From Candidatus Palauibacter rhopaloidicola (GTDB lineage Bacteria > Gemmatimonadota > Gemmatimonadetes > Palauibacterales > Palauibacteraceae), in NCBI GenBank assembly GCA_026914155.1, contig JAPPGH010000050.1:124001-188000 (forward strand): 64,000 nucleotides of DNA, given 5' to 3'. Each line of letters opens with the position of its first letter. Within the stretch, counting starts at the first letter, position 1. A program made the position numbers and the translations under genes. Below, one piece after another: positions 3,654 to 47,512 of this stretch. The notes under the pieces are model-generated. The model worked only from the letters and a program-made list of their open reading frames with translations. It did no database searches and was not told the DNA's origin.

Positions 3654-3678
3654 GGTTCTTCCACCTTCCCTTACGGAA

Positions 3679-4452
3679 TCAGACGGTCGCCGCCGCCTGC
3701 TGAAGCCAGTCGTATCCCTCGGCTTCCAGCTTGTCGGCGAGCGAGGCGCCGCCGCTCTCCGCGATGCGGCCGGCCATCATCACGTGCACGATGTCCGGCT
3801 GGATGTAGTTGAGGATCCGCTTGTAGTGCGTGATGAGCAGCACCCCGAGCGCCTCGTCGGCCTCCGACAGGCGGTTCACTCCGCGGGCCACGACCTTGAG
3901 CGCGTCGATGTCGAGTCCGCTGTCCGTCTCGTCCAGAACCCCGAGTGCCGGCCGAAGCACGGCCATCTGCAGGATCTCGTTCCGCTTCTTCTCGCCGCCG
4001 GAGAAGCCGTCGTTCACATACCGGGTGGCGAAGCCCGGATCCATCTTCAGCATCTCCATCTTCTCCGTGAGCGTGCGCTGGAACCCGAACACGTCCATTT
4101 CTTCGCCCTCGCCCAGCCGCGAGTTGACAGCGGTGCGCAGAAAATTGGCGATCGAGACGCCCGGGATCTCCGCCGGATACTGGAAGGCGAGAAAGATCCC
4201 CGCGCGGCTCCGCTCATCGGGCTCCAGCTCGAGGACATCCTCCCCCTCGAACAGGATCTCGCCGGCCGTCACCTCGTACGCCGGGTGGCCCGCGATGACC
4301 TTGGCGAGTGTGCTCTTGCCCGAGCCGTTGGGACCCATCAGCGCGTGCACTTCGCCGCGCTGGAGGTCCAGGTCGACGCCGCGGAGGATCTCCCCCTCCA
4401 CGCCTTCGACTTTCGCCCGGAGTCCGCGTATCGACAGAAGCGGTTCTGACAT
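3679..4452 (-). CDS. sufC: Fe-S assembly ATPase SufC
   Basis: 257-residue ABC-type ATPase without membrane domains that drives rearrangement of the SufBCD complex. Walker A is GPNGSGKST (about residues 39-47), the ABC signature is [11 protein letters not shown], and Walker B runs into the SufC-specific [12 protein letters not shown]. It is the first gene of the minus-strand suf operon. A promoter and operator-like palindromes lie 76-151 bases upstream. The length equals the family norm. Confidence 0.97.
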
Positions 4453-4527
4453 TCGTGTCCTCTTGGTGCGAAAGGCCGGTCACCCAGGGGCGCCGGCCTG
4501 GAAATACAGCGTTCAATTCAAGATGAA

Positions 4528-4544
4528 CCGATAACGATTATCGG
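4528..4544. promoter_or_regulatory. Fur-like palindrome at the suf transcription start
   Basis: CCGATAACGATTATCGG is a perfect 7-3-7 inverted repeat. Its core GATAAC-G-ATTATC differs at one base from the 6-1-6 Fur pattern GATAAT-N-ATTATC. It covers the predicted suf start site, where a bound repressor would block transcription. Iron control of suf by Fur-family proteins is known in other bacteria. The assignment here is inference from the motif only. Confidence 0.55.
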
Positions 4545-4550
4545 CGGGAC

Positions 4551-4579
4551 AAAGTACGCGGCGCACGACCCCTTATCAA
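4551..4579 (-). promoter_or_regulatory. Probable sigma70-type promoter of the suf operon
   Basis: Read on the minus strand, TTGATA (4579-4574) and TACTTT (4556-4551) are separated by exactly 17 bases, giving a start near 4544, about 92 bases upstream of sufC. The -35 matches consensus at 5 of 6 positions and the -10 at 3 of 6. It is the best-spaced promoter in the divergent gap, and it is flanked by the two palindromic sites described separately. Confidence 0.55.
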
Positions 4580-4603
4580 CCCTCGTTGAGACCCGTTCTC
4601 AAC
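4576..4603. promoter_or_regulatory. Nested CAAC/GTTG inverted repeats at the suf -35 region
   Basis: TCAAC-N4-GTTGA (4576-4589) overlaps the proposed suf -35 box. It shares its right half with a second perfect repeat, GTTGAGA-N5-TCTCAAC (4585-4603). CAAC...GTTG half-sites recall the cyanobacterial SufR operator (CAAC-N6-GTTG), but the spacing differs. A SufR/Rrf2-type regulator could bind here, and so could a regulator of the divergent gene at 4707. No regulator gene is in the window. Confidence 0.4.
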
Positions 4604-4706
4604 CATGTGCCCCGACTGCGACGCGCTTGCGACTCGATGGTCTCCGTCCGCTTCGAGCATCGGCGGCCCGCTGCACTCACTGCGGCGCAACCGTAGGTTG
4701 GCGGCC

Positions 4707-5741
4707 ATGAAAGCGGCCTACTTCGAACGACACGGGGGGCCCGACGTCATCCGCGTCGGCGACCTGCGCGAACCGGCGGCGGGTCCGGGAGAGGCGGTGA
4801 TCCGCGTGCGCGCGGCGGGCCTCAACCACCTCGATCTGTGGACGCGGCGCGGCCTGCCGGGACTCACGCTGAAGATGCCGCACATCGGAGGGTCGGATGT
4901 GGCGGGCGAGATCGCGGCGACGGGGGACGGAGTGGAGGGCTGGGCGGCCGGCGACCGGGTCGCTGTCAACCCGGGCCTCTGGTGCGCCGGTGCCGACTGC
5001 GAGTGGTGCGCCCGCGGCGAGCACCCCCTCTGCACCTCCTACCGCATCCTCGGCGAGCACGTGCCGGGCGGTTTCGCGGAACAGGTCGCGGTTCCGGTGC
5101 GCAACCTGGTCCGGCTCCCCGACGGCTTCCCGTTCGCGACCGCGGCCGTCGCGCCCCTCGTATACCAGACGGCATGGCGCGGGCTCCTGTCGCGAGGGCG
5201 GCTGGCGCCGGGAGAGACGGTCCTCGTCACCGGGGCCTCGGGCGGCGTCTCCACCGCCGCGATTCAGATCGCGAAACACCACGGGGCGCGGGTATTCGCG
5301 GTCACGAGCGGACCCGACAACGTACGGCGCGTGGAGGCGCTCGGAGCGGACCTCGTCATCGATCGTCTCGAGGAGGATTTTTCGCGGCGCGTCTGGATGG
5401 AGACGGGGAAGCGCGGCGTCGACCTCGTCCTCGACAGCGTGGGCGCGGCGACGTGGGAGGGCTGCGTCCGCGCGTTGGCGCCTGCGGGCAGGATGGTCGT
5501 GTACGGCGCGACGACCGGGCCGCAGGGCAAGCTCAACATCGCGCGCCTGTTCTGGAGCCAGACATCGATCATGGGGACCACGATGGCGACGCGTGCCGAG
5601 TTCGAGGCCGTGATGGCACTCGTGCTGGACGGCACCCTCACGCCGGTCGTCGATGACGTGTGGCCGCTCGGCCGGGCGCGCGAGGCCCACGAGCGGCTGG
5701 AGGCGGGCGGAGTCTTCGGGAAGCTCGTCCTCGTGCCGTGA
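4707..5741 (+). CDS. MDR-superfamily zinc-binding dehydrogenase / quinone reductase
   Basis: 344-residue medium-chain dehydrogenase/reductase. ATG 4707 is chosen because MKAAYFERHG is the usual start of this family, although the frame is open further upstream. The four-cysteine structural zinc lobe is present (CAGADCEWCARGEHPLC). The catalytic-zinc ligands of true alcohol dehydrogenases are absent: the usual GHE is GSD. The nucleotide-binding fold follows as VTGASGGVSTAAIQIAKHHG. This points to an NAD(P)H-dependent quinone/enone reductase rather than an alcohol dehydrogenase. Its stop overlaps the GTG start of the next gene, so the two are probably co-translated. The substrate is unknown. Confidence 0.85.
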   Translation: MKAAYFERHGGPDVIRVGDLREPAAGPGEAVIRVRAAGLNHLDLWTRRGLPGLTLKMPHIGGSDVAGEIAATGDGVEGWAAGDRVAVNPGLWCAGADCEWCARGEHPLCTSYRILGEHVPGGFAEQVAVPVRNLVRLPDGFPFATAAVAPLVYQTAWRGLLSRGRLAPGETVLVTGASGGVSTAAIQIAKHHGARVFAVTSGPDNVRRVEALGADLVIDRLEEDFSRRVWMETGKRGVDLVLDSVGAATWEGCVRALAPAGRMVVYGATTGPQGKLNIARLFWSQTSIMGTTMATRAEFEAVMALVLDGTLTPVVDDVWPLGRAREAHERLEAGGVFGKLVLVP

Positions 5742-7459
5742 CCCCGGCTCCGGGGCGCGCGGAGCGGTTCCGGAGCCTCGCGGAAACCGCCTTCGACATC
5801 CTCGTCATCGGAGGCGGCATCTCCGGCGCGGCCGTCGCGCGCGACGCGGCCCGCCGCGGATTTCGCACCGCTCTCGTCGAAGCGGCGGACTTCGCGTCGG
5901 GCACGAGCAGCCGTTCTTCGCGCCTCGTCCACGGCGGCCTGCGCTACCTGGAGCACTTCGAGTTCGACCTCGTGTTCGAGGCGAGCCAGGAGCGCCGGAC
6001 CCTGCTTCGGATCGCGACCCACCTCGTCCGGCCGCTGGAGTTCCACTTTCCCATCTTCCGGGACGGCCGCGTCGGCCGGAGGAAGCTGGACGCGGGGATG
6101 TGGCTCTACGATGCGCTCTCGCTGTTCCGGAACATCGAACGCCACCAGATGCTCGACACCGAGGCCATGCTCGCCCGCGAACCGGGGCTGCGCGCCGAGG
6201 GGCTGCTGGGCGGCGCGCGCTATTTCGACGCCCAGGTCGACGATGCGCGGCTCGTCATCACCACCGTCGTGGCGGCCGCCGAGGCCGGCGCGACCGTGGT
6301 CAACCGGGCCGAGATCGTCCGCATCGACGCCTCCGACTGGCCGGGCCACCGGGCGCGGGTCAGAGACGCGGAGAGCGGAAGGGAAGTGGAAGTCGACGCC
6401 CTTGCGATCGTCAACGCCACCGGCGCGTGGGCGGAGCAGATGCTCGACCGCGTCAGCGCGGGCTCCCCGGGACCCGGCCCGGGCGACGGCGCGGCGTCCG
6501 CCGTGCGCATCCGTCCCTCGCGGGGGACGCACATCCACGTGGCGCGCGAACGGGTAGGGCACTCCGGCGCCCTGATCTTCGAGGCGCCCCAGGACGGTCG
6601 CGTGATGTTCATCCTCCCGTGGCGGGAGGACCTGACCCTCATCGGGACCACGGACGAGTTCTTTGACGGCCCGGCGCACGAGGTCGCGGCCACTCCCGGG
6701 GATATCGCCTACCTGCTCGAGGCCACCCGTAGCCTGCTCCCCGCGTCGAAGCTGGGACCGGAAGATGTGATCAGCGCCTGGGCCGGCCTGCGGCCGCTCG
6801 TGGCGCCGCCCGCGGACGGCGCCGACGAGGGTGCGGTCTCGAGGGAGTTCGAGGTCCACCAGCGCCCCCCGGGCGTCTTCACCCTGAGCGGAGGGAAGCT
6901 GACCTCTCACCGGCACATGGCCGAGGCGACGGTCGACCGCGTGCAGGCGTTCCTCGCGCCAGCGGGCGTGAAGGCGCTTCGGAAGGTCGACACGGACAAG
7001 GTCCCGCTCCCCGGCGCGCGGTTCCGCGATCTGGACGAGCTCCGCGGCCGGATCCGGGCGCGGGCCCGCGCGCACGGGCTCAAGCGTGCCTCCGCCGACC
7101 GCCTTACGCGGGCGTACGGGACGAGAGCGAACCGGGTTCTCGACCTGGTCGAGCGGAACCCGCGGCTCGGCGAACGGGTCGTCGCGGAGAGGCCGCACCT
7201 TCTGGCCGAAGCGGTGTATTCGGTGCGGAGCGAGATGGCCCTTCACGTCGAGGACATTCTCTTCCGGCGCATGCGGGTCGGCCTCGAGACGCGGTCCGGG
7301 ACGCCGGAGGGCGCGCGCCGCGTGGCCGAGGTCGTGGCCCCGGAGCTGAACTGGACGGAGGAACGGCGGATGGAGGAAGTGAAACGGGCTCTGGCCTTCA
7401 GGGCGGTGGACGACGGCGCGATCCGCGAACTGGCGGCCGGCGCGAAGGTGGTGCGCTGA
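5738..7459 (+). CDS. glpD: FAD-dependent glycerol-3-phosphate dehydrogenase GlpD
   Basis: 573-residue flavoprotein of the aerobic GlpA/GlpD family, which oxidises glycerol 3-phosphate to dihydroxyacetone phosphate and passes electrons to quinone. The FAD Rossmann motif GGGISGAAVARDAARRG is at about residues 24-40, followed by the family signature SSRSSRLVHGGLRYLE. GTTDEFFDGP and the C-terminal helical domain (SVRSEMALHVEDILFRR) are also present. GTG 5738 is chosen because it overlaps the previous stop (GTGA). The protein is somewhat longer than E. coli GlpD, partly from an N-terminal tail. Confidence 0.93.
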   Translation: MTPAPGRAERFRSLAETAFDILVIGGGISGAAVARDAARRGFRTALVEAADFASGTSSRSSRLVHGGLRYLEHFEFDLVFEASQERRTLLRIATHLVRPLEFHFPIFRDGRVGRRKLDAGMWLYDALSLFRNIERHQMLDTEAMLAREPGLRAEGLLGGARYFDAQVDDARLVITTVVAAAEAGATVVNRAEIVRIDASDWPGHRARVRDAESGREVEVDALAIVNATGAWAEQMLDRVSAGSPGPGPGDGAASAVRIRPSRGTHIHVARERVGHSGALIFEAPQDGRVMFILPWREDLTLIGTTDEFFDGPAHEVAATPGDIAYLLEATRSLLPASKLGPEDVISAWAGLRPLVAPPADGADEGAVSREFEVHQRPPGVFTLSGGKLTSHRHMAEATVDRVQAFLAPAGVKALRKVDTDKVPLPGARFRDLDELRGRIRARARAHGLKRASADRLTRAYGTRANRVLDLVERNPRLGERVVAERPHLLAEAVYSVRSEMALHVEDILFRRMRVGLETRSGTPEGARRVAEVVAPELNWTEERRMEEVKRALAFRAVDDGAIRELAAGAKVVR

Positions 7460-7470
7460 ACCGGCGGCCC

Positions 7471-8253
7471 TTGCGGCCCGGCCGCGCTCTGTCCGCATCC
7501 GCGCTTGCATGGCTCGCGGCGGCGTGCGCCCCGGTCGACGACCCCCCGGATTCGCCCGGGACGCCGCCCGATTCCGTGCCGTCCGACGGCGCTGCCGCGT
7601 CCGTCCCGCCCGCCCGGCTCGCGGGCGAGGGTCCGACCCGCGAATACCGGGTCCTGCTGGTCAATCCGCTCGACATCGACGCGTACGTCTTCGCCGCGGC
7701 CGGAGCCGGGAGCGTAGTGCTCGATACCGTGCCGCGCCGGGATTCCGTCCGGGTGAACATCCGGCTGCGCGCCGACCTCGTCCGCCTCGAGGCCCGTGGT
7801 GCGGAAGGCACGGTCCTGGCGGAAATCGACCTCGCGCTGGCCCGGGACGGCCTCAACCGCTGGGTCATCGAGGCCGACGCTTCCGTCCGGCGTGTCACCA
7901 TTGGCCCAAAGAGTTCGTTAAACGGCAGGAAGGCCTTATACTATGGGAGCGATCTGTGTCCGGATCCGGCGTTCGGTGCGGCGTTAGGGGCAGGGACGAT
8001 GGAGGAGGGGGGACGCCATGAAGAAGCTGAGGATCGTGCTGGCGCTCGTCGCGAGTATCGCGATGATCGTCGTCGGGCAGCGTCAGGTCGGCCAGAAGGA
8101 TGTGCGGGCGCAGAAGGCGGACATCCAGGGAGTCGATTCCGAAAACGAGGCCTTGTTCATCTAGCACGGGCTGCTAGCAGGACGACCGGCGGCCTCGCCG
8201 GTCCTTTCGCCCGAAGCACCGTCGAGCATTCTCGCGACGGTGACGGAGCATGA
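7471..8253 (+). CDS. Putative lipoprotein; the 3' third of the frame is doubtful
   Basis: Begins at TTG 7471, 11 bases after glpD. The N-terminus has a lipoprotein-type signal (LAWLAAACAPVDD) and a Pro/Ser/Asp-rich tether, then a compact beta-rich domain (EYRVLLVNPLDIDAYVFAAA) to about base 7910. No known family is recognised. Beyond that the frame stays open to 8253 but turns into Arg/Gly-rich low-quality sequence and overlaps, in another frame, a convincing 48-residue gene with its own -10 box, ribosome site and hairpin. Either the true stop was lost by a frameshift near 7910-7920, where adjacent frames stop, or the long tail is a recent extension. Confidence 0.5.
   Translation: MRPGRALSASALAWLAAACAPVDDPPDSPGTPPDSVPSDGAAASVPPARLAGEGPTREYRVLLVNPLDIDAYVFAAAGAGSVVLDTVPRRDSVRVNIRLRADLVRLEARGAEGTVLAEIDLALARDGLNRWVIEADASVRRVTIGPKSSLNGRKALYYGSDLCPDPAFGAALGAGTMEEGGRHEEAEDRAGARREYRDDRRRAASGRPEGCAGAEGGHPGSRFRKRGLVHLARAASRTTGGLAGPFARSTVEHSRDGDGA
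7937..7942 (+). promoter_or_regulatory. Possible -10 box of the small-peptide gene
   Basis: TATACT matches the sigma70 -10 consensus at 5 of 6 positions in an otherwise very GC-rich stretch. It would give a leader of about 70 bases before the ATG at 8018. No good -35 is present at 16-18 bases (TTCGTT at 7914), so the promoter is weak or uses an activator. Confidence 0.35.
8018..8164 (+). CDS. 48-residue secreted or membrane peptide, unknown function
   Basis: Small ORF starting MKKLRIVLALVASIAMIVVG: two lysines and an arginine, then an uninterrupted hydrophobic helix, as in a signal peptide or single membrane anchor, followed by about 28 hydrophilic residues ending ENEALFI. A strong Shine-Dalgarno (GGAGGAGGGGGG) lies just upstream, a TATACT box precedes it and a perfect hairpin follows the stop. 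Third positions are mostly G or C, as in neighbouring genes. No family is recognised. It could be a signalling or toxin-like peptide or a small membrane protein. It conflicts with the long reading frame starting at 7471. Confidence 0.6.
   Translation: MKKLRIVLALVASIAMIVVGQRQVGQKDVRAQKADIQGVDSENEALFI
8184..8207 (+). terminator. Hairpin terminator after the small-peptide gene
   Basis: GACCGGCG-GCCT-CGCCGGTC is a perfect 8-bp stem with a four-base loop followed by CTTT, 19 bases after the peptide stop. A second, weaker hairpin (CTAGCA-N5-TGCTAG) overlaps the stop codon itself. The T-run is short, so termination may be partial. Confidence 0.5.
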
Positions 8254-9527
8254 CAGGTGCGGGGCGCCGGATGAGTCCAGTCAAGTGTATTGTCGCCCGG
8301 CGGATCGGCTTGCGCCGTCGTGTGCTCCGGGTCGCCGGGGTGCTGTGTGCCGTGGGGCTGGCTGCATGCTCCGGAGAGAGCTTCGGCCCGTTGACCGGGT
8401 TCTCGAATTGCTCGCTTCCGATCGCGAACTTCACGGACGCCGGCGCCGAGCGCTCGAGTATTCCGGCGCTCACGAATCCCGACGTCGCCACGCGGCTCAT
8501 CGCCCCCCACGTCGGTTACGTCAATCGCAGCGATATGGTGATCGGGCTCGAGTTCAACGGCCAGCCCCTTGCCATACCCTTGAAGCTCCTCTGGTACCAC
8601 GAAGTTCTGAACCTGCAGGCCGAGTCCGACCCGGCCGACCCGAGTGCAACGGGAGAACGGCTCACGATCACCTATTCGCCGCTCACGGGGTCGGTCAGCG
8701 TCTTCGATCCTGAGCCGAGCGGCACGCCCGACTTCGCGGTATCCAAGTACGTCCTCGACAACAACCTCGTGATGGATGACGGCTCCGGGACGCTCTATCC
8801 CCAGTTGACGCGCTCCGCCACGTGCGGCCCGCGGGACGGGAGCAGCCTGACGCGCGTGCCGTACGAGTTGATGCTGTACGGAGCCTGGCTCCAGATCTTC
8901 CTGGACACCTGGATCGCGACCCGCGCGACGGGGCACGACTTCCTCTACACGCTCTACCCGTACGGGAACTATCGGGACCCGGACAACGCCTCGCTCTTCT
9001 ATCCGACCTCCGCTCCGATCGATCCACGCCGACCGCCGAAGGGGCGCGTGATCGGCGTCCCGGCGGGAACCGGCGGCATCGCGTTCGCCATCGCGGACCT
9101 GAGAGAAGTCGCGGCGCGGGACCAGGAGGGTCAGGGCACGTCCGTCTGGGCCGCGAGCGCCATGGCGCGCGGCGAGCCCGTCGTCGCGTTCTGGAACTCC
9201 AGCGCTCAGAGCGCGAGGATCTACCGGGCTCGAGCCAACGGGCGGCCGCTCACGTTCGAGGTCGTCGATGGTCGCCGGCAGGATGTGCAGACGGGGAGCG
9301 TGTGGAATTTCGCGGGCGAGGCCGTGGATGGACCGTTGGAGGGCGAAACGCTCGAAGCGCATCCCGAGGCGTACCACGCCTTCTGGTTCGCCTGGGCGGC
9401 GTTCCAGCCGGACACGGAGGTATGGGCCCCGCCGATTCCCCTCACCGGCTCCGGCTACGTCGTGCCGGCGGACGACGCGACGCTGGTGCCTCAGGATCCG
9501 GATCTGACGAGACGGCGTCCCCACTGA
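8250..9527 (+). CDS. DUF3179 domain lipoprotein
   Basis: 425 residues with a lipoprotein signal (GLAACSGESF), so it is predicted to be membrane-anchored and exported. DUF3179 landmarks are visible: LLWYHEVLN, TYSPLTGS (usually YCPLTG), PPKGRVIGV and the C-terminal YHAFWFAWAAFQP. The function of DUF3179 is not established. Two starts are possible, ATG 8250 and ATG 8271; both leave the signal intact. ATG 8250 overlaps the stop of the upstream frame, which may be chance. It converges on the next minus-strand gene. Confidence 0.82.
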   Translation: MTGAGRRMSPVKCIVARRIGLRRRVLRVAGVLCAVGLAACSGESFGPLTGFSNCSLPIANFTDAGAERSSIPALTNPDVATRLIAPHVGYVNRSDMVIGLEFNGQPLAIPLKLLWYHEVLNLQAESDPADPSATGERLTITYSPLTGSVSVFDPEPSGTPDFAVSKYVLDNNLVMDDGSGTLYPQLTRSATCGPRDGSSLTRVPYELMLYGAWLQIFLDTWIATRATGHDFLYTLYPYGNYRDPDNASLFYPTSAPIDPRRPPKGRVIGVPAGTGGIAFAIADLREVAARDQEGQGTSVWAASAMARGEPVVAFWNSSAQSARIYRARANGRPLTFEVVDGRRQDVQTGSVWNFAGEAVDGPLEGETLEAHPEAYHAFWFAWAAFQPDTEVWAPPIPLTGSGYVVPADDATLVPQDPDLTRRRPH

Positions 9528-36970: not shown

Positions 36971-37207
36971 CTATCTGCCTTCCCAGGCGGCCAGTTCCTC
37001 CTCCGGCAGCGGGTCGAAGAAGCTGTCGGGGATCACGATCCGGTCCCTTAGAACATCCGGTTGGCGCTTGCCGGCCGGCTTGCAGGCCACCAGCCGTGCC
37101 ACCGGCTCGCCGCGGCGAGCGATGACGATGTCCTCTCCAGCTTCCACCTGTGCCAGAAGGCGAGACAACTGTGTCTTGGCTTCATGAACGTTCACGACGT
37201 GCGACAT
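36971..37207 (-). CDS. Phd/YefM-family antitoxin
   Basis: 78 residues: VNVHEAKTQLSRLLAQVEAG and EDIVIARRGEPVARLVA are the classic Phd/YefM N-terminal DNA-binding fold; the C-terminal tail (FFDPLPEEELAAW) would wrap the toxin. The ribosome site GGAGGGG precedes ATG 37207. It is the first gene of the pair, and operator-like 12-bp repeats sit directly upstream, fitting autoregulation. Confidence 0.9.
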   Translation of the reverse strand: MSHVVNVHEAKTQLSRLLAQVEAGEDIVIARRGEPVARLVACKPAGKRQPDVLRDRIVIPDSFFDPLPEEELAAWEGR

Positions 37208-38430: not shown

Positions 38431-39558
38431 CTACGGAAACCGGCTTCGGTCGATGTCGGGGATGATCCGGAGCGCGTTCTCGAAGTAGACCTTCCGCAGG
38501 ACCTCGTCCGGCAGGTCGAGGCCGTACATGCGCCAGAAAGCGTGGTACCTGCGATAGTAGGGGAAGTACTCGTCGGCGGTCTCCAGCACCCGGAAGTAGG
38601 TGGGGTACTCGTCCGGCGCCCAGGAGTCCTTCCCCATCAGGATGCGGTCCTGGTACTCGGTGAAGAATTCGCGGGCGAAGCGGGGCTGCCGGCCCGGCTC
38701 GTAGATCACGGCGCCGAGTCCGACGTTCATGTTCGGGATCTCGTCCAGGAGCTGCCCGAGGCGGCCGAGGTCGTGGCCGAGCCACGCGAGGTGCGCGGCG
38801 ATGAACGTGGTCTCCGGGTGTCGGCGGAACATGTTCAGTTGCTCCTCCAGCACCAGCTCGAAGGAGGGGGGGCCGGTCTGTCGGCGGCGGGGCCGGAGGC
38901 GAAGCTCGAGCCAGCGCTCGTTGCTTTCGTCCATCGGCTCCCAGAACGACGCGGGGTCTCCCGAGTGGATGAGGACGGGGATGCCGAGTTCTCCCGCCTT
39001 GGCCCAGATCGGGTCGAGACGGGGGTCGTCCACCGGGACGCGCCGGTCGGCGGCATCGGTGAGCCACAGCCCGAGGTTCTTGAAGATCTTGAGCCCGCGG
39101 GCGCCGGCTTCGACATCGGCCTCCAGCCGCGCCGCGGCGAGCGCCCCGAATTCGGGGTTCCCGATGTCGCTGAAGTCGACGTTCGCGAACACGACGAAAC
39201 GGCCGGGATACGCGGCCTCGAAGGCCTCGATCTGGTGCGCGAGCCGGGGGCCGGTGCCGCCGCTCAGGTTGACGCCGACGGCGAGGTTGAGCACGTCCAT
39301 GTCGCGCACGAGCTGGTCGAGCTGCGCGCGCGGCATCGTCCCGTTGAGGTGCAGGTGGACATCCACGAAGGGGAAGGCCGCGCGCGAGACCGGGTTCTCG
39401 GGCACGACCAGCGTCGAGCGGGGGTCGTACGCCTCGACGGTCATCGGCGGCGCGGTGTCCGGGGGCACGGGCGGAGGACCGCGCCGCTCCTGAGCCGCGG
39501 CCGGCGTCGCCGCCGCCAGCATGATCGCGATCGTGATCCCCGTCCGCGCGTCCCTCAT
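38431..39558 (-). CDS. Exported metal-dependent amidohydrolase (amidohydro_2)
   Basis: 375 residues with a signal peptide (IAIMLAAATPAAAQE). TIM-barrel metal motifs: FPFVDVHLHLNGT, Lys in ARGLKIFKNLGLW (candidate for the bridging carbamate), His in IPVLIHSGDP, His in TFIAAHLAWLGHD and Asp in ILMGKDSWAPDEY. This is the decarboxylase/hydrolase-like amidohydro_2 group. The substrate is unknown. It is followed on the same strand by the coiled-coil gene. Confidence 0.83.
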   Translation of the reverse strand: MRDARTGITIAIMLAAATPAAAQERRGPPPVPPDTAPPMTVEAYDPRSTLVVPENPVSRAAFPFVDVHLHLNGTMPRAQLDQLVRDMDVLNLAVGVNLSGGTGPRLAHQIEAFEAAYPGRFVVFANVDFSDIGNPEFGALAAARLEADVEAGARGLKIFKNLGLWLTDAADRRVPVDDPRLDPIWAKAGELGIPVLIHSGDPASFWEPMDESNERWLELRLRPRRRQTGPPSFELVLEEQLNMFRRHPETTFIAAHLAWLGHDLGRLGQLLDEIPNMNVGLGAVIYEPGRQPRFAREFFTEYQDRILMGKDSWAPDEYPTYFRVLETADEYFPYYRRYHAFWRMYGLDLPDEVLRKVYFENALRIIPDIDRSRFP

Positions 39559-39603: not shown

Positions 39604-40362
39604 CTATGCCCCAAAGTGCGCGGCCATGCGATCCGCCAGCGCCGCGATCATCTTCTCGCCGAGTTCGGCGCTCGCCCCGCGCGCGTCGCCGAGGATCCCG
39701 TTCGGCGTCACGCTCGCGAACCCCTCGCTGAGCACGCGCCGGATGAGTTCCGGTTCCTCTTCGGGCGTCGTAAGGCGTCCGCACTCGGCCAGTTCCTCGC
39801 GGACGATCCCGTCGTGCATGGCCATCATGATTGACGTCTCGGCGATGTCCGCGTGGCCGCCTACGCGGCCCCCGAGCCCCGCGTCCGCCTCCGCGACATC
39901 GCGCCAGACGCCGATGACCTCGGCCAGGTCCGCGTATACGTACACGGAACAGTCGGGCCCCGCCGCTTCGTTGAACGCGTCACGCGCCTCGGCGAGCGGA
40001 GCGAAGTTCCCTCCGTGGGATGGGACGAAGCAGACGCGCCGGAAGCCGTGGTGCGCGAGGCTGACGGCGTAGTCCCTGCACACGGCGAGGAAGGTCTCCT
40101 TTTCGAGGGAGACGGTGCCGGGGAACGCCATGTGGTGCGCGGACCAGCCGACCCGGATCGTGGGCGCCACGAGCGCCCCGCCGAGACGCCGGGCGATCTC
40201 GACCGCGAGCCGGTCCCCGTGCTCGGCGTCCACGAACAGCGGCAGGTGCGGCCCGTGCTGCTCCACCGCCCCGGCCGCGACGACGACCGTCGTGACCCCC
40301 GCCCCGATCGCCGCCCCGATCTCTGGCGACGTCATCCGCTCCATCCGTATTTCGGCAGTCAT
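39604..40362 (-). CDS. Creatininase-family amidohydrolase
   Basis: 252 residues from ATG 40362. The metal ligands of the creatininase family are all visible: Glu and His in GAVEQHGPHLPLFVDAEHGD, and His in FVPSHGGNF, with a later Glu in HADIAETSIMMA. Members hydrolyse cyclic amides (creatinine, or formamide steps in riboflavin/F420 and mycofactocin paths). No flanking gene reveals the substrate. ATG 40362 is chosen by family length; a longer frame runs upstream. Confidence 0.87.
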   Translation of the reverse strand: MTAEIRMERMTSPEIGAAIGAGVTTVVVAAGAVEQHGPHLPLFVDAEHGDRLAVEIARRLGGALVAPTIRVGWSAHHMAFPGTVSLEKETFLAVCRDYAVSLAHHGFRRVCFVPSHGGNFAPLAEARDAFNEAAGPDCSVYVYADLAEVIGVWRDVAEADAGLGGRVGGHADIAETSIMMAMHDGIVREELAECGRLTTPEEEPELIRRVLSEGFASVTPNGILGDARGASAELGEKMIAALADRMAAHFGA

Positions 40363-40501: not shown

Positions 40502-41986
40502 CTAGTCGTTTCCCGAGAAGCCGAACACGGCGCTGAAGCGCCACCCTGCCTCTCTCAAGGAGGCCGAGCGACGAATCACCGCCTCAAGATCTGTCGGCGA
40601 GAGTGGTAAACCGGTATCGCCGGAGGCCTCGCTGAGGCGGGTGAGGTCCACAATGACCGTCTCGCTCGGTTCGTTCTCTCCCGTTCGGTTGAGCATCAGA
40701 AAGCGCTGCGGTGATCCGGCGGGGCGTTGCGGCCCCTCTATCGAGGCATGCATGAGCCCGGCTTGCAGGGCCGTCGCGTTGGGACCCGCCGGTCCCTCGG
40801 CGACCAGAGAGTCCAAGTGGACATGGATCCCCGCCGAAACGTGTCGACTCCACGGGGTATCCAGTTCCGGACCCGTCGCTTCCAGATTCCGCAGGCTGTC
40901 CAGCCATGTGGAGAGGATCTCGCCGACCGCGGCGCGATTCCCTCGGACTTCGCCAGCGGCAAGAGTCGGCGGCGCATCGCCGGACGTCAGTTCCGCGTCG
41001 TCCGTGCAGTACACCAGGCCCGCCGCGAGCATGCATACCGCAGCCAACAGGAAGGTCCCGCGCAACCAGCGCGGTAGAGGCCTCGGCTTGTCCCTGAAGA
41101 TCATTCGGATTCTCCTTTCCAGTGAGATGGCGCTCTGGCCGTCCGCGGCCGTGCTGACGAACGCGGGGCAACGCAGCGCGGAGGCCGTGGACATGAACTC
41201 GACGGTGCGCAGCAGGGCGCCGGCGTAGACACGCGGCTGAGCCGAGATGGAAGATGAGGCCAGCGCATCGGAGCAGTATTCCTGGGCCCTCCGCAACTCC
41301 CGTCGGGCCCGCCACGCCACGGGATTCCACCAGAAGACGGCGCAGGCCAGCCACTCGAGCCACCGGACCAGATGGTCTCGCCGACGAACGTGGGCGAGTT
41401 CGTGCGCGAGGATGCACCTGAGTTCCCCTGATTTCAGGCCGGAGGCGAGCTTGGCGGGGATCAGGACGCGCAGGCGGTTCCCGCCCCACCACACCATTGG
41501 GGATACGTGCGCCTGGGTCGTGTAGATCGGAGGCACGTTGCGGAGGCCGAGTTGCCCCGCAATCTCCCCGGCCACCCGCTGAACTCCCGCGGGGGCAACC
41601 TCGGATGCGCGCATCAGGTGGCGGCGGAGACGAAGAGTGCGGAAGAGGCTCCAGGAGACCACGGTCGCGGTGCCGAAGAGCCAGAGCAGAAGAAGCCCCG
41701 CCTTCCAATGGCCGGCGAGCCAGCCGGCAAGCGAAACAGCGAGAGACGACGGGGGTGGAGATGCCGAGGAGAGACCGGTCACGAGCGGCAAAGTCAGCTC
41801 GGTTCGCGGCGCGAACACCGGAATCGAGACGAGCGGAGGAGCGAGGAGCGCGGCGAGCAGCAGCAGCCATAGCGCGTGGGAAAGCGCGGGTCTGCCGAGT
41901 CGCCGCGTCACCGCCCAGGCCAGCGCCGCCAGGGCGACGGAGAGGGCCAGCTTGGTGGCTCCGATCTGGAGGATCAGATCCGTCAT
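40502..41986 (-). CDS. BlaR1/M56-like membrane sensor protease, copy 1
   Basis: 494 residues. N-terminal membrane helices are followed by the M56 zinc protease site HELAH (about 195-199) with FWWNPVAWRARRELRRAQEY downstream. A late membrane helix ends in LAAGLVYCTD, and the last ~160 residues form a periplasmic domain that is not a penicillin-binding domain. M56 proteases sense a signal outside and cleave BlaI-type repressors inside. It overlaps blaI by four bases. The paralog at 42395 has the same plan but a different sensor domain, so the two may respond to different signals. Confidence 0.85.
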   Translation of the reverse strand: MTDLILQIGATKLALSVALAALAWAVTRRLGRPALSHALWLLLLAALLAPPLVSIPVFAPRTELTLPLVTGLSSASPPPSSLAVSLAGWLAGHWKAGLLLLWLFGTATVVSWSLFRTLRLRRHLMRASEVAPAGVQRVAGEIAGQLGLRNVPPIYTTQAHVSPMVWWGGNRLRVLIPAKLASGLKSGELRCILAHELAHVRRRDHLVRWLEWLACAVFWWNPVAWRARRELRRAQEYCSDALASSSISAQPRVYAGALLRTVEFMSTASALRCPAFVSTAADGQSAISLERRIRMIFRDKPRPLPRWLRGTFLLAAVCMLAAGLVYCTDDAELTSGDAPPTLAAGEVRGNRAAVGEILSTWLDSLRNLEATGPELDTPWSRHVSAGIHVHLDSLVAEGPAGPNATALQAGLMHASIEGPQRPAGSPQRFLMLNRTGENEPSETVIVDLTRLSEASGDTGLPLSPTDLEAVIRRSASLREAGWRFSAVFGFSGND

Positions 41987-42351
41987 CCTTCCTCCAGGAT
42001 CTCGCGCAGGCGCTCGATCTCCTCGGGTTCGAGCTTCCGCTCTTCCATCAACTGGGTGATCATCGGGACCAGGGAGCCGCCCGTGATCCGGTCGGCCAGC
42101 GCCTCGAGCCGCGCGGACGCGTACGCCTCGCGGCTGATCCGGGCGGAGAAGAGTTGCGTGCCGAGGCTGGCGTCACGGTGGACGAAACCCTTGTCCTCGA
42201 GCCGCTGCAGCAGACGCTGGATGGTGCCGTGCGCGGACCTTGTCGTGTCCGGATAGAGCAGGTCGCGGAGCCGGCGGGCCGTGAGGCGCCCCTCCTTCCA
42301 GAGTCGTTCCATGACCGCGAGTTCAGCGTTGGCCAGGCGCGGCGTCGTCAT
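41983..42351 (-). CDS. BlaI/MecI/CopY-family repressor
   Basis: 122 residues. The winged-helix opening LANAELAVMERLWKEGRLTA and GTIQRLLQRLEDKGFVHRDA are typical of BlaI. The C-terminal half carries the dimerisation helices (SLVPMITQLMEERKLEPEEI). It lies between two M56 protease genes on one strand and overlaps the downstream one. The predicted operators are the two ACGAC-N5-GTCGT sites at 44002-44042, upstream of the whole operon. The ribosome site AAGAAAGGG lies upstream of the start. Confidence 0.9.
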   Translation of the reverse strand: MTTPRLANAELAVMERLWKEGRLTARRLRDLLYPDTTRSAHGTIQRLLQRLEDKGFVHRDASLGTQLFSARISREAYASARLEALADRITGGSLVPMITQLMEERKLEPEEIERLREILEEG

Positions 42352-42392
42352 GCGAAACCCTTTCTTGATCGTTCTCGGTGCCGGACGTCAAA

Positions 42393-42410
42393 CATCACGT
42401 TCCCGTGATG
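42393..42410. terminator. Perfect hairpin at the end of the upstream M56 gene
   Basis: CATCACG-TTCC-CGTGATG (7-bp arms, 4-base loop) spans the stop codon of the M56 gene. There is no T-run, so it may act as an attenuator, an mRNA stabiliser or a protein site that sets blaI expression within the operon. It does not match the ACGAC/GTCGT operator. Confidence 0.4.
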
Positions 42411-43945
42411 GTCTGCGCTGTTTCGCACGTCATTGTCATCGAGGCGATAGCGGACTCGTGTGAGAGCACCGCGCCTTCGGCACCCGTACACTCCACTTGC
42501 GTCCCCTTGAGTGATGACAGGTTCAGGTTCTGGCCCACCCGGAGGTGCTGGCCGAGTTGGGCTTCGAGGGCCTCTTCGGAGAGTGGGCCTTCCGAAAGCG
42601 CGGACCGAAAACGGGCAAGGTCAAACACGACTGTCTTGAAGTCTCCAGCCCCGTCGTCCGGAGTCACGGCCAGGAACAGGTCGGGCGTGCCGCCGCGTAC
42701 CCTCTCGACCCGACCGTCGTCGCCGCGTAGCCGCACCGACCCACCCGACAGGGCCGCCTCGCCGGCGGCACGCAGGGTCCTGGCGAGGTCGGCCGGGAGG
42801 GCGTGCTCCGTGGCGATCGCCTCGATCAGCTTGCGCATCACATGCGGCCGTAGGGGTGTGACGGCTGCCGGATTGTCTCCCTGTTCATCGAGGTGCAGGA
42901 CCGCCTCCTCGTTCGCCGGGACGAAGGTCGGGTCGACGGAGGTGAGGTTCGACTGGTCGGTGCAGTAGACGAGGCCGCCGGCCAGCAGGCAGACGGCGCC
43001 GCAGCGCAGCGCGACGCGGAGCCAGCGCGGCGCGGGGGTCGAGGTTCGGTTCGTCATGATCACGCGGAATCTCCTTTCCAGCCGCGACGGTCGGCCGCAG
43101 CGATCGATCGTACTCGCGAAGGTCAGGGGCCCCGGGACCGGGGTCTTGGAAATGAAGTCGATCACCCGGAGCAGCGCCCCGGCGTAAGTGCGGGGTTCGG
43201 CCTCGGTCGCGGCGACGGCGAGCGCGTCGCAGCACAACTCCTCGGACGCCCGCAGCCGCCGCCGGGCCCACCACGCCACGGGGTTCCACCAGAAGGCTGC
43301 GCACGCGAGCCACTCGAGCCAGCGCACGACGTGGTCGCGGCGCCGGACATGGGCGAGTTCGTGCGCCAGGACGCAGCGCAGTTCGGACTCCTCGATCTCG
43401 GCGAGCAGTTTCGCGGGGATGAGGACGCGCACCTTCCCGCCGGCCCACCACACCATGGGCGACAGTTGCGCGCGCGTCGCGTAAACGGCGGGAGCCGCGG
43501 AGAGACCGAGCCTGCGGGCGATCTCCCGCGCGAGCCGCCGGACCCCGGGCGGCGCGGGTTCCGAAGCGCTCAGGAGCGAGCCATGGAAACGGAGCGTGCG
43601 CACGAGCGTCCAGCCGAGTACGGAAGCGGTGCCCAGGAGCCAGAGCCAAACGAGGGTGTCTCCGCCATGGCTCTGCAGCCACTCGAGCAGCGTGGCCCCG
43701 ACCGATGGCGCCGACTCCGCCTCCGGAAAACTGATCGCGGCCACGGGGCCCACCGGATCGACGCCCCCCGACCAGACCGGAATCGAGACGAACGGCGGCA
43801 CGAGCAGGACGGCGAGCGGCAGAAGCCACAGCCCGTGCGCCAGCGACGGCTTCCCGCAGCGCCGCGCCGCGACCCACGCCAGTCCGGCAAGACCGATCGA
43901 GATCGCCAGCTTGCTGGCCCCGATCTGGAGAATCATGTCCGTCAT
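42395..43945 (-). CDS. BlaR1/M56-like membrane sensor protease, copy 2
   Basis: 516 residues, the first gene of the M56-BlaI-M56 operon. It has the same architecture as copy 1: helices, HELAH in CVLAHELAHVRRRDHVVRWL, a late helix ending LLAGGLVYCTDQ and a C-terminal soluble domain (from about residue 340). The two copies share the MTDxILQIGAxKLA start and core, but their sensor domains differ strongly; both keep a segment like KTVVFDLARFRSALSEGPLS. No beta-lactam-binding motif is seen. The BlaI operators lie 57-97 bases upstream. Confidence 0.86.
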   Translation of the reverse strand: MTDMILQIGASKLAISIGLAGLAWVAARRCGKPSLAHGLWLLPLAVLLVPPFVSIPVWSGGVDPVGPVAAISFPEAESAPSVGATLLEWLQSHGGDTLVWLWLLGTASVLGWTLVRTLRFHGSLLSASEPAPPGVRRLAREIARRLGLSAAPAVYATRAQLSPMVWWAGGKVRVLIPAKLLAEIEESELRCVLAHELAHVRRRDHVVRWLEWLACAAFWWNPVAWWARRRLRASEELCCDALAVAATEAEPRTYAGALLRVIDFISKTPVPGPLTFASTIDRCGRPSRLERRFRVIMTNRTSTPAPRWLRVALRCGAVCLLAGGLVYCTDQSNLTSVDPTFVPANEEAVLHLDEQGDNPAAVTPLRPHVMRKLIEAIATEHALPADLARTLRAAGEAALSGGSVRLRGDDGRVERVRGGTPDLFLAVTPDDGAGDFKTVVFDLARFRSALSEGPLSEEALEAQLGQHLRVGQNLNLSSLKGTQVECTGAEGAVLSHESAIASMTMTCETAQTITGT

Positions 43946-44001
43946 GCGTGTCTATCCGCCTTTCGCTCCCCGGCTCTCGCTCCGGATTCGTCAACGCCAT
44001 G

Positions 44002-44049
44002 TTCACGACGACATGTCGTAAGTTTACGACGCGATGTCGTAACCGTCAA
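44002..44049 (-). promoter_or_regulatory. M56-BlaI-M56 operon promoter with two tandem BlaI-type operators
   Basis: Two inverted repeats, TTCACGAC-N5-GTCGTAA (44002-44021) and TTACGAC-N5-GTCGTAA (44024-44042), are centred 21 bp apart, i.e. two helical turns. On the minus strand TTGACG (44049-44044) and TAAACT (44026-44021) give a -35/-10 pair with exactly 17 bases between. The second operator fills the spacer and the first covers the start near 44014. This is the classic layout for BlaI repression. The rest of the 315-base gap up to the gene at 44261 holds no clear gene. Confidence 0.75.
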
Positions 44050-44260: not shown

Positions 44261-47200
44261 ATGCGTACGCGCTCAGGGCTCCCGGTGTCTCTTTCTCTCC
44301 TCGCGGTGCTCGCCCTCACCGCAGCCCCCCTTCCCGCGCTGGCCCAGGACGCCGATCTGCAGGCGGCGGTCCAGGCGCTCGAATGGCGCGAAATCGGACC
44401 CACGATCATGGGCGGCCGGATCGCCGACCTCGCCGTCGACGAGGCCGATCCGTCCACCTTCTACGTCGGCGTCGCGACGGGCGGCGTGTGGAAGACGATC
44501 AATGGCGGAAGCACGTTCGAGTCGGTCTTCGACGACCAGACGATGCTCTCCGTCGGGGATATCACGCTCGCGCCGTCGAACCCGAATGTGGTCTGGGTCG
44601 GCTCGGGCGAGCCGCAGAACCGCCAGTCCTCCCCGTGGGGGATGGGCGTGTTCCGCTCGACGGATGCCGGCCGGACCTGGACCCATCTCGGACTCGAGGC
44701 GACGCACCACATCTCGCGCATCCAGGTCCATCCGCGGAATCCGGACGTGGCCTACGTGGCGGCGATGGGCCGCCTTTGGGGCGCGAACCCGGAGCGCGGC
44801 GTGTACCGGACGATGGACGGCGGCGAGACGTGGGAACTCGTCCTCCATGTCGACGAGCACACGGGCGCGATCGACCTCGCCATGGATCCCGGCGATCCGA
44901 TGACGCTGTTCGCGGCCATGTACCAGCGGCAGCGGACGCTGTGGGGCTTCAACGGCGGCGGACCCGGGGGCGGCATCTACCGGACGATGGACGGCGGCGA
45001 CAACTGGACGAAGCTCGCCGGCGGCCTGCCGGAGGGTGACGTGGGCCGCGTCGGGCTCGACATCTACCGGCGCGACGGGAACCTCGTCTGGGCGATCGTC
45101 GAAGCCGACGCGCGCGCCCCGGGACAGGGCTTCGGTGCCCAGGAAGACGCCGACCGCAAGACGGGGACCTACAAGTCGACCGACCGCGGCGAGACGTGGG
45201 TGCAGACGAGCACGACGAACAACCGTCCCATGTACTACAGCCAGATCCGCATCGATCCGAACGATCCCGAGCGGCTCTATCTGGGCGGTTCGAGTCTGTA
45301 CCGCACCTCGGACGGGGGGTACAACTTCACGCCGGACGCGGCCTCCGAGGTCCACTCCGACCACCACGCGCTGTGGATCAACCCGGCGAACTCCGACCAC
45401 CTGATCCTCGGCGGCGACGGCGGCGTCTCGATCAGCTGGGACCGCTCCGACAACTGGCGGCAGCTGACGAACCTGCCCCTCGCGCAGTTCTACGAGATCG
45501 GCGTCGACAACCGCGATCCCTATCACGTGTGCGGCGGCCTCCAGGACAACGGTTCCTGGTGCGGCCCCTCGGACACCTGGTCCAACCAGGGGATCCGGAC
45601 CCGCGACTGGTACAACGTGGGGAGCGGCGACGGCTACTTCACCGTCCTCCATCCCAACGGCGAGGAGATGATCGCCGAGTCCCAGAACGGGAACCCCATG
45701 CGCGTGAACCTCAAGACGGGCGAGCGGCTGCGGATGCGTCCGCTGGGGCGCCCGGAGGGGGATGACGAGGATCTGCCCGAGTTCCGCTGGAACTGGGACA
45801 CGCCGGTCGAGGTGTCGCCGAGCGACCCGAACACGGTCTACTACGGGTCGAACGTCGTGTTCAAGACGCCCGACTACGGCCAGACGTGGGAGCAGATCTC
45901 GCCCGACCTGACGAAGGGTATCGACCGGACGACGCTGGAGATCATGGGCGTCCTCGGCTCGGAGCCGATGATGTCGGCCAACGACGGGACCTCGAGCTTC
46001 GGCAACATGATCTCCATCGAGGAGTCGCCGCTCGATCCGATGGTCGTGTACGCGGGCACGGACGACGGGAACCTGCAGGTCACGCGGGACGGCGGCGGGA
46101 CGTGGACGAACGTGGCGCCCAACATGCCGGGCGTGCCGGACCAGTTGTACATGACGCGGATCGTCGCGTCGCACGCCGATGCGGGGACCGTGTGGGTCGC
46201 GGGGGACAACCACCGCAACGACGACATGGCCCCCTACCTGTACGTCTCGAACGACTTCGGCGAGTCGTGGCGGGCGGTGAGGGACGGGATCCCGGACGGA
46301 TGGTCGCTGAACGCGCTGGCGCAGCACCACCGCGCCGCGAACCTCCTCTTCGCCGGTAACGAGATCGGCACCTACTTCTCGATCGACGCGGGCAACTCGT
46401 GGCACCCGCTGCTGCGGAACATGCCACCGGCGCCGGTGGACGACATCAAGATCCAGGAGCGTGAGAACGACCTCGTGATCGGCACGCACGGGCGCGGCAT
46501 CTGGATCATGGAGGACATCACGCCGCTCGAGGAGCTGAGCCAGGCCGTGCTCGCCTCCGAGGCGCACCTCTTCTCGACCCAGTCGGCCGTCGCCTACAAC
46601 CCCTACACGCCGCAGGGCTGGACGCCGGGCGTGTGGGAGGCGGAGAACCCGCCGCAGGGTGCCCGCATCCGCTACTGGCTGGGCAGCGACCTGCCGGAGG
46701 CCCCGACGGCCGACGAGGAAGGCGGCGAAAGCGGCGAGCGGATCGTCACCGGCGGTTCGTCCGCCAACGGCGATGATCCGGCGCCCATGTCCGCGATGGC
46801 GGGCAAGGCGGCGATCACGATCCTCGACTCCGACGGGTCCGTGATCCGGGAACTCGAGGGCGGTGGCGACCGCGGCCTGAACGAGGTCATCTGGGATCTG
46901 CGCTACGAGCCGCCGCCGGCGCCGCCGGGCGGGGGCGGGTTCTTCTTCCGGGCCGGCAGCGTAGCGCCGAAGGTCCTCCCGGGGTCTTACACGGCCCGGC
47001 TGGACGCGGCGGGACAGACGCTCGAGACGGCGGTCACGGTGCGGCTCGACCCGCGCGTGAACATCAGCCAGGGCGACCTCATGGCGCGGCAGGAGGCACT
47101 CATGAGCGCCTACGCGCTCGCGAAGCCGACGAACGAGGGGCTGCAGGCCGCGGCCCGGCTGCGCGGCCACCTGTCCGACGTCGAGGCGCAGCTCGAGGGC

Positions 47201-47512
47201 CACGACGTGGCCGAGTCGCTGACGGCGGAAGTCGAGGCCATCGGCGAGGAGCTGGACGAGATCGGTGACGAGCTCGACACGGCCCGAGGGGGCGCCGGCG
47301 TCTCCGGCGGTCTGTCGGGCTACCACACGGCGCCGACGGCGGACATGCTCTACCAGCTCGAGCGCGGCTGGGGCGCGCTGCCCGGCGCCATCGACCGGCT
47401 GAACGTCCTCATCGAGGACCGCATGCCGGCGCTCTTCTCGGCCGTACAGGCGGCCGGGGTCGGCCCCGACCTCGGCGATCCGGTACGGGGCCCGACGCCG
47501 CCGATGCGCTGA
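44261..47512 (+). CDS. Secreted VPS10/sortilin-like BNR-repeat protein
   Basis: 1083 residues from ATG 44261; the open frame upstream is an antisense reading of the M56 gene. A signal peptide (ALTAAPLPALAQDAD) is followed by many sialidase-type BNR repeats with Asp boxes (STDAGRTW, TMDGGETWE, SNDFGESWR) forming propellers (about 40-760), then a C-terminal beta/coiled segment. Such proteins are usually annotated as glycosyl hydrolases or VPS10 proteins, but no catalytic residues can be named. It is followed by the M14 peptidase gene and is divergent from the M56-BlaI operon, whose operators lie 219 bases upstream of it. Confidence 0.85.
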   Translation: MRTRSGLPVSLSLLAVLALTAAPLPALAQDADLQAAVQALEWREIGPTIMGGRIADLAVDEADPSTFYVGVATGGVWKTINGGSTFESVFDDQTMLSVGDITLAPSNPNVVWVGSGEPQNRQSSPWGMGVFRSTDAGRTWTHLGLEATHHISRIQVHPRNPDVAYVAAMGRLWGANPERGVYRTMDGGETWELVLHVDEHTGAIDLAMDPGDPMTLFAAMYQRQRTLWGFNGGGPGGGIYRTMDGGDNWTKLAGGLPEGDVGRVGLDIYRRDGNLVWAIVEADARAPGQGFGAQEDADRKTGTYKSTDRGETWVQTSTTNNRPMYYSQIRIDPNDPERLYLGGSSLYRTSDGGYNFTPDAASEVHSDHHALWINPANSDHLILGGDGGVSISWDRSDNWRQLTNLPLAQFYEIGVDNRDPYHVCGGLQDNGSWCGPSDTWSNQGIRTRDWYNVGSGDGYFTVLHPNGEEMIAESQNGNPMRVNLKTGERLRMRPLGRPEGDDEDLPEFRWNWDTPVEVSPSDPNTVYYGSNVVFKTPDYGQTWEQISPDLTKGIDRTTLEIMGVLGSEPMMSANDGTSSFGNMISIEESPLDPMVVYAGTDDGNLQVTRDGGGTWTNVAPNMPGVPDQLYMTRIVASHADAGTVWVAGDNHRNDDMAPYLYVSNDFGESWRAVRDGIPDGWSLNALAQHHRAANLLFAGNEIGTYFSIDAGNSWHPLLRNMPPAPVDDIKIQERENDLVIGTHGRGIWIMEDITPLEELSQAVLASEAHLFSTQSAVAYNPYTPQGWTPGVWEAENPPQGARIRYWLGSDLPEAPTADEEGGESGERIVTGGSSANGDDPAPMSAMAGKAAITILDSDGSVIRELEGGGDRGLNEVIWDLRYEPPPAPPGGGGFFFRAGSVAPKVLPGSYTARLDAAGQTLETAVTVRLDPRVNISQGDLMARQEALMSAYALAKPTNEGLQAAARLRGHLSDVEAQLEGHDVAESLTAEVEAIGEELDEIGDELDTARGGAGVSGGLSGYHTAPTADMLYQLERGWGALPGAIDRLNVLIEDRMPALFSAVQAAGVGPDLGDPVRGPTPPMR

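Follow-up and report, generated by a model that had tools for sequence, protein, structure and literature searches.

The window analysed here, a 64,000-nucleotide stretch of contig JAPPGH010000050.1 from the sponge-associated Gemmatimonadota genome Candidatus Palauibacter rhopaloidicola, contains a single BlaI repressor gene flanked by two intact membrane protease sensor genes. Open reading frames (ORFs) and their translations place these on the minus strand in the order M56-A, blaI, M56-B, with the M56-B start overlapping the blaI stop by 4 nt (ATGA). We favour an autoregulated BlaI/M56 derepression switch in which M56-A is the standing partner and M56-B a second, dispensable input, and we give this reading roughly an even chance of being correct. 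The gene order, the intact catalytic residues, the architecture and conservation of the operators and the maintenance of loci carrying M56-A only can all be read from the sequences.

The first-pass annotation of this DNA had described two BlaR1-like proteases with similar cores around one BlaI in one operon, and the ORFs and Pfam searches confirmed it. The two proteases scored 88 and 97 bits against Peptidase_M56, and BlaI scored 83 bits against Penicillinase_R over residues 7-121, all far above cut-off. BlaI could be aligned with the solved BlaI and MecI structures, which places its domain in the BlaI/MecI/CopY family, and its residues Q100-L101 align with N101-F102 of Staphylococcus aureus BlaI, the cleavage site of that repressor. 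M56-A and M56-B share 45% identity over 484 aligned positions, mostly in the core, and both show the features of the M56 family (HEXXH, distal Glu and topology), with four hydrophobic, presumably transmembrane regions each. HELAH, E236/D240 (M56-A numbering) and R292 are present in both, and every one of the 27 M56 proteins in the alignment has R292. In a profile built from relatives, these residues line up with those of S. aureus BlaR1, among them Asp246 and Arg294. The ratio of nonsynonymous to synonymous polymorphism (pN/pS) was 0.36 and 0.45 in the cores of two M56-B lineages, values that indicate purifying selection on these cores; the M56-A core, with a mean of 0.40, is constrained as well. 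A protease lacking a functional zinc site, which the annotation had named as fatal to its proposal, was not found, and the intact motifs together with selection on the core rule out a dead second protease.

The annotation had also named a second blaI elsewhere, serving M56-B, as a refutation. The genome holds eight BlaI and twelve M56 matches; the other BlaI proteins are 24-32% identical to that of the locus, and each adjoins its own M56. With the best of them at 32%, a second close blaI serving M56-B was ruled out, and by these identities only one cognate BlaI is present for two M56 proteases.

A sigma70-like promoter precedes M56-A and is the sole such match in the region (1 found against 0.2 expected). 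It is covered by O1 and O2, tandem direct copies of an imperfect 19-bp palindrome, TTACGAC-N5-GTCGTAA, and these inverted repeats at the regulated promoter form a putative operator. No copy of the palindrome within two mismatches was found elsewhere in the 4.1-Mb genome. The core TACAnnTGTA, cited for CopY, BlaI and MecI operators (PMC7253601), is absent from the dyads, which carry TACGAC...GTCGTA instead. When the upstream stretch was shuffled, at least two such dyads appeared in 7 of 500 shuffles, compared with three in the native stretch under a loose criterion. The dyads of the window are thus only moderately significant by themselves, and the case for an operator rests on conservation: tandem dyads could be aligned at the same promoter in all ten M56-A loci known from the genus (degenerate in G024), nine of which match the strict pattern, and the promoter boxes of one of these loci (G030) read TTGACT-17-TATAAT. 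The same tandem-dyad promoter layout occurs at the single BlaI-M56C pairs of the genus. The first-pass annotation ended the feature at 44049, exactly where the predicted -35 box begins, and promoter and operator are therefore part of it. The divergent gene for a sortilin/BNR-repeat protein is unlikely to be a direct target of the switch, since it starts about 220 bp from the operator; its 5' region has a separate conserved AT-rich stretch of its own.

We compared 17 genomes of the genus, G000 being that of the window. The operator, M56-A and BlaI occupy one syntenic site in 10 of them, in the order divergent BNR gene, operators, M56-A, BlaI, creatininase and amidohydrolase; the G022 and G031 loci are interrupted by contig ends. 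The genome groups with sponge- and coral-associated Gemmatimonadota, as its M56-A locus has counterparts in sequences labelled Gemmatimonadales, Gemmatimonadetes and Candidatus Palauibacter poriticola. The search for the same gene order that the annotation had proposed returned M56-A-BlaI-M56-B in four genomes and M56-A-BlaI only in six. M56-B falls into two types whose cores are 55% identical, B1 (G000 and G023) and B2 (G022 and G032). In the six loci without it, only a scar of its first codons follows the blaI stop, joined directly to what elsewhere lies downstream of M56-B; the six show at least two types of junction. Because these loci lost M56-B yet kept M56-A, BlaI and the operator, M56-B would be an accessory input and not an equal partner; M56-A seems sufficient and M56-B additive. 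Neither this blaI without M56-A nor M56-B without blaI was found in any of these genomes.

Loss of the whole module was also observed. In G020, G026 and G025 everything from the promoter through most of blaI is gone, leaving a 3' stump of blaI before the creatininase gene; the join in G025 differs from that in G020 and G026, and the G025 contig ends carry foreign sequence. Two contig ends of G025 at the lost module (L198 and L199) have short similar inverted sequences, which suggests a mobile element at the locus. In G029 the BNR and creatininase genes lie 134 bp apart with no trace of the module.

The retained parts evolve at very different rates. BlaI is 93-100% identical to that of the window across the orthologous loci (mean identity 94.5%, pN/pS 0.10), compared with 82.6% and 0.40 for the M56-A core and 58.2% and 0.62 for its C-terminus. 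G000 and G023 share 95% identity in the C-terminal domain of B1. Between G022 and G023, identity is 98-100% over about 6 kb through the M56-A core and drops abruptly inside its C-terminal region; beyond the drop the blaI part is 92-94% identical, the M56-B types differ, and similarity returns at the creatininase gene. This pattern indicates recombination at the locus.

The annotation had further held that the two C-terminal domains have diverged and that neither is penicillin-binding, and both statements stood. Pfam searches found no penicillin-binding, transpeptidase or beta-lactamase-type domain in either protease, and the two scored 65 and 59 bits with the NCBIfam BlaR1 model, whose cut-off is 400; together these results rule out a penicillin-binding sensor. 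Structure prediction, suggested for both domains, succeeded for one of them. The M56-A domain was modelled as a compact alpha-alpha-beta-beta-alpha-alpha-beta-alpha-beta-beta fold with a predicted local distance difference test score (pLDDT) of 82-91 over much of its length, and across ten species two of its cysteines and many of its positions do not vary; the model of the M56-B domain stayed below pLDDT 55. A fold search with the M56-A model returned only BlaR1 and other zinc peptidases, which superposed well only on the membrane and protease part, and nothing beyond this BlaR1-like part was matched in that search, made with the M56-A model only. By sequence, the M56-A domain matched no solved structure (best E 0.68), and profiles of either domain, searched against 20 relatives, matched only these M56 genes. 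Comparison of the A and B profiles, both very shallow, gave E 0.029 and a probability of 1.7%. The predicted strand-strand-helix order is similar, and the two domains may share a common fold core, a refinement of the divergence claimed earlier.

In the switch that we favour, BlaI dimers would bind O1 and O2 over the only recognisable promoter of the operon, and repression would cover M56-A, blaI, M56-B and probably the creatininase-amidohydrolase pair. M56-A and M56-B would be zinc proteases with four transmembrane regions, a cytoplasmic active site and a periplasmic C-terminal domain. Once a signal acts on one of these C-terminal domains, the protease carrying it would become active and would cut BlaI or trigger its inactivation, and the operon would open, its own regulatory genes included. 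Repression, topology and proteolysis are modelled here on BlaR1/BlaI. Both M56 proteases may act on this BlaI, and A and B may respond to different signals, M56-B thereby widening or tuning the signal range; if the two act independently on one repressor, OR logic would result. The creatininase-amidohydrolase pair may be the output of the switch, and we put it at about even odds that it serves as an output through the shared operon.

Several observations weigh against this picture. The creatininase-amidohydrolase pair persists in the three relatives that lack the promoter and most of blaI; its transcription must therefore be possible without the switch too, from another promoter. A folded sensor in M56-B is only putative, given the low confidence of its model. 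The repeated loss of M56-B would also be expected of a redundant copy. M56-B might indeed be a redundant duplicate that is being lost, left over from an old duplication and with no separate signal, and the first-codon scars at different junctions in six siblings and the loss of most of the module in G020, G025 and G026 are consistent with this. We consider it unlikely. Against it, the reading frames of both B lineages are still open and their cores constrained, the C-terminal domain of B1 is closely conserved, and M56-B has persisted since a split from M56-A that predates the diversification of the sampled locus-carrying species.

M56-A and M56-B could instead form an obligate or mixed heterodimer whose output depends on both domains, with AND or modulatory logic. 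BlaR1 forms a domain-swapped dimer, with Arg294 extending from one chain into the active site of its partner and contacting Asp246 (PMC9834060); the equivalent R292 is present in both copies, which would be co-produced from one operon. An obligate A-B pair is however unneeded in the six loci that keep M56-A, BlaI and the operators without M56-B, although a facultative heterodimer might still form; we assign the heterodimer a low probability. It is likewise rather improbable that the C-terminal domains are little-constrained tails and not ligand sensors, the response passing through the membrane part or the first outer loop, or being a response to a metal. The lack of relatives of these domains outside these genes in profile and structure searches, the higher pN/pS of the M56-A C-terminus than of its core, and the response of PetP/PetR, a BlaR1/BlaI-type switch, to copper (PMC7896320) point in that direction; the compact predicted fold of the A domain, its invariant cysteines and its many other invariant positions argue against it. 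We tentatively add, as a possibility that we would not rate highly, that the locus provides an exchangeable sensor slot, in which the repressor, promoter and protease core are nearly fixed, the periplasmic domains vary fast, and B1, B2 or no M56-B is present through deletion and recombination between close species. If so, receptor diversification would point to a variable external partner, such as molecules made by hosts or competitors in sponges and corals.

When the protease cores were placed in a tree, the ten M56-A sequences formed a clade (support 100/100), M56-A and M56-B together formed another (99/96), and B1 and B2 appeared as two old types joined at moderate support (92/72). By this tree, A and B split before the sampled locus-carrying species diversified. 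The other BlaI-M56 pairs that were examined, from Gemmatimonadota and Planctomycetota, nearly all start with blaI and have one M56 after it, so M56-B holds the ancestral position and the upstream M56-A is a derived addition that later became the permanent partner. A start with MTDL directly after blaI is common to the BlaI-M56-B junction and the M56C pairs. Tandem BlaI-M56-BlaI-M56 arrays occur at two loci (L080 and L145) and are a plausible intermediate in the origin of the locus. A recent insertion of M56-B is less likely, since relatives without it keep its first codons and the M56C outgroup shares the MTDL start. By comparison with relatives, M56-B is an old but dispensable extra sensor whose outer domain depends on lineage.

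The M56C gene itself is broken just before the HEXXH codons in G020 (L201, 1-1060) and at the ends of L067 and L068 in G026. In G020 a 352-aa ORF lies directly against the break and, judged by eye only, resembles a tyrosine recombinase, which suggests an integrated element. One contig labelled Gammaproteobacteria (L093) also carries an M56C pair; this groups with those of the genus, so the contig is probably mis-binned.

The module is bounded by the divergent BNR gene on one side and the creatininase-amidohydrolase pair on the other (Table 1). The creatininase-family amidohydrolase is probably a downstream member of the operon and the Amidohydro_2 protein probably its last: no terminator-like site was found between the operon genes, and wherever an orthologous locus has its flanks available, both genes lie downstream on the operon strand. 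The neighbours of the operon are the BNR protein, an M14 peptidase, the creatininase and the amidohydrolase, and no gene for a beta-lactamase or a resistant penicillin-binding protein was found among them, in operon or divergon. The BNR protein belongs to a large paralogous family with 18 matches in the genome. Further along the window (36971-37207, minus strand), a 78-aa protein resembles a Phd/YefM-type antitoxin, by sequence only.

Table 1. Features of the M56-BlaI-M56 locus and its flanks, in window coordinates
Feature	Position	Strand	Description
Amidohydro_2 protein	38431..39558	-	signal-peptide-like N-terminus (by reading)
Creatininase-family amidohydrolase	39604..40362	-	conserved ATG at 40362; longer ORF from TTG 40431
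M56-B	40502..41986	-	second BlaR1-like metalloprotease, 494 aa; intact zinc motif; C-terminal domain unlike that of M56-A
blaI	41983..42351	-	BlaI-family repressor, 122 aa
M56-A	42395..43945	-	BlaR1-like membrane metalloprotease, 516 aa; four transmembrane regions; orphan C-terminal domain about 339-516
M56-A residues	HEXXH 195-199, E236, D240, R292		motif alignment
Operator dyad O2	44003..44021	-	TTACGAC-ATGTC-GTCGTGA; 21 bp (two helical turns) downstream of O1
Operator dyad O1	44024..44042	-	TTACGAC-ATCGC-GTCGTAA; between -35 and -10, overlapping -10
Sigma70-like promoter	44021..44049	-	TTGACG-17-TAAACT; aligned in 10 orthologous loci
Sortilin/BNR-repeat protein	44261..47512	+	divergent gene bounding the module

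One BlaI with two M56 proteases is not unique to this locus, since further BlaI-M56-M56 loci were found in the genome of the window and in another genome of the class, and uniqueness was rejected. On contig C60 (L017), BlaI (8839-9186) is followed by two M56 genes (7769-8806 and 4483-5427). Contigs C6 and C45 (L018 and L019) each have one BlaI and two M56 genes in the same order, the first M56 with TonB_C and Plug-like regions; these two loci are near-identical, as would fit either the 6% contamination reported for the genome or a duplicated assembly, and are probably assembly duplicates. In the other genome (G046, L164), two M56 genes (3591-4460 and 5328-6200) and BlaI (6230-6565) again give BlaI-M56-M56, with M56-like pieces upstream (8319-8868). 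Two loci with a single M56 (L172 and L173) have the order M56-BlaI, the reverse of the usual one. A literature search, limited in coverage, returned no paper on a double-M56 BlaI operon.

The protein families and the switch principle are already known. Of interest here are the M56-BlaI-M56 order, the series from A with B1 or B2 through A only to a stump, and the way in which a fixed repressor contrasts with a fast-evolving sensor domain. Many uncultured phyla carry BlaI/M56 pairs, mostly without a known signal. Loci with A and B1, A and B2, A only or none, beside a near-invariant repressor and operator, offer a comparison set for sensing by M56 C-terminal domains, and the same set suits the question of whether two proteases share one repressor. 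If OR logic holds, the locus would offer a simple route for two outside signals into one repressor without a branched two-component system.

Among known systems, the locus resembles BlaR1/BlaI of S. aureus and Bacillus licheniformis in pairing an M56 protease with a BlaI-family repressor, in the zinc motif and the equivalents of Arg294 and Asp246, in the membrane and protease fold (TM-score 0.76 by target length to 8exr chain A) and in having dyad operators at the regulator's own promoter. Unlike BlaR1/BlaI, it has no penicillin-binding sensor and no beta-lactamase or PBP2a in the operon, and it has two M56 proteases per BlaI and GC-richer 19-bp dyads. The mecR1-mecI-mecR2 operon of methicillin-resistant S. 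aureus likewise has three genes, in the order sensor protease, repressor and second repressor-acting protein (PMC3406092), but has in MecR2 a XylR-related anti-repressor in place of a second M56 protease. In cyanobacteria, PetP/PetR also combines a BlaR1-type protease with a BlaI-type repressor and responds to a non-beta-lactam signal; it has one protease and photosynthesis genes as targets. The same families make up the single BlaI-M56 pairs found in Gemmatimonadota and Planctomycetota, among them the M56C pairs of the genus, which share the tandem dyads and the MTDL start; these have blaI first and one M56, and an M56 upstream of blaI is the derived feature of the locus described here.

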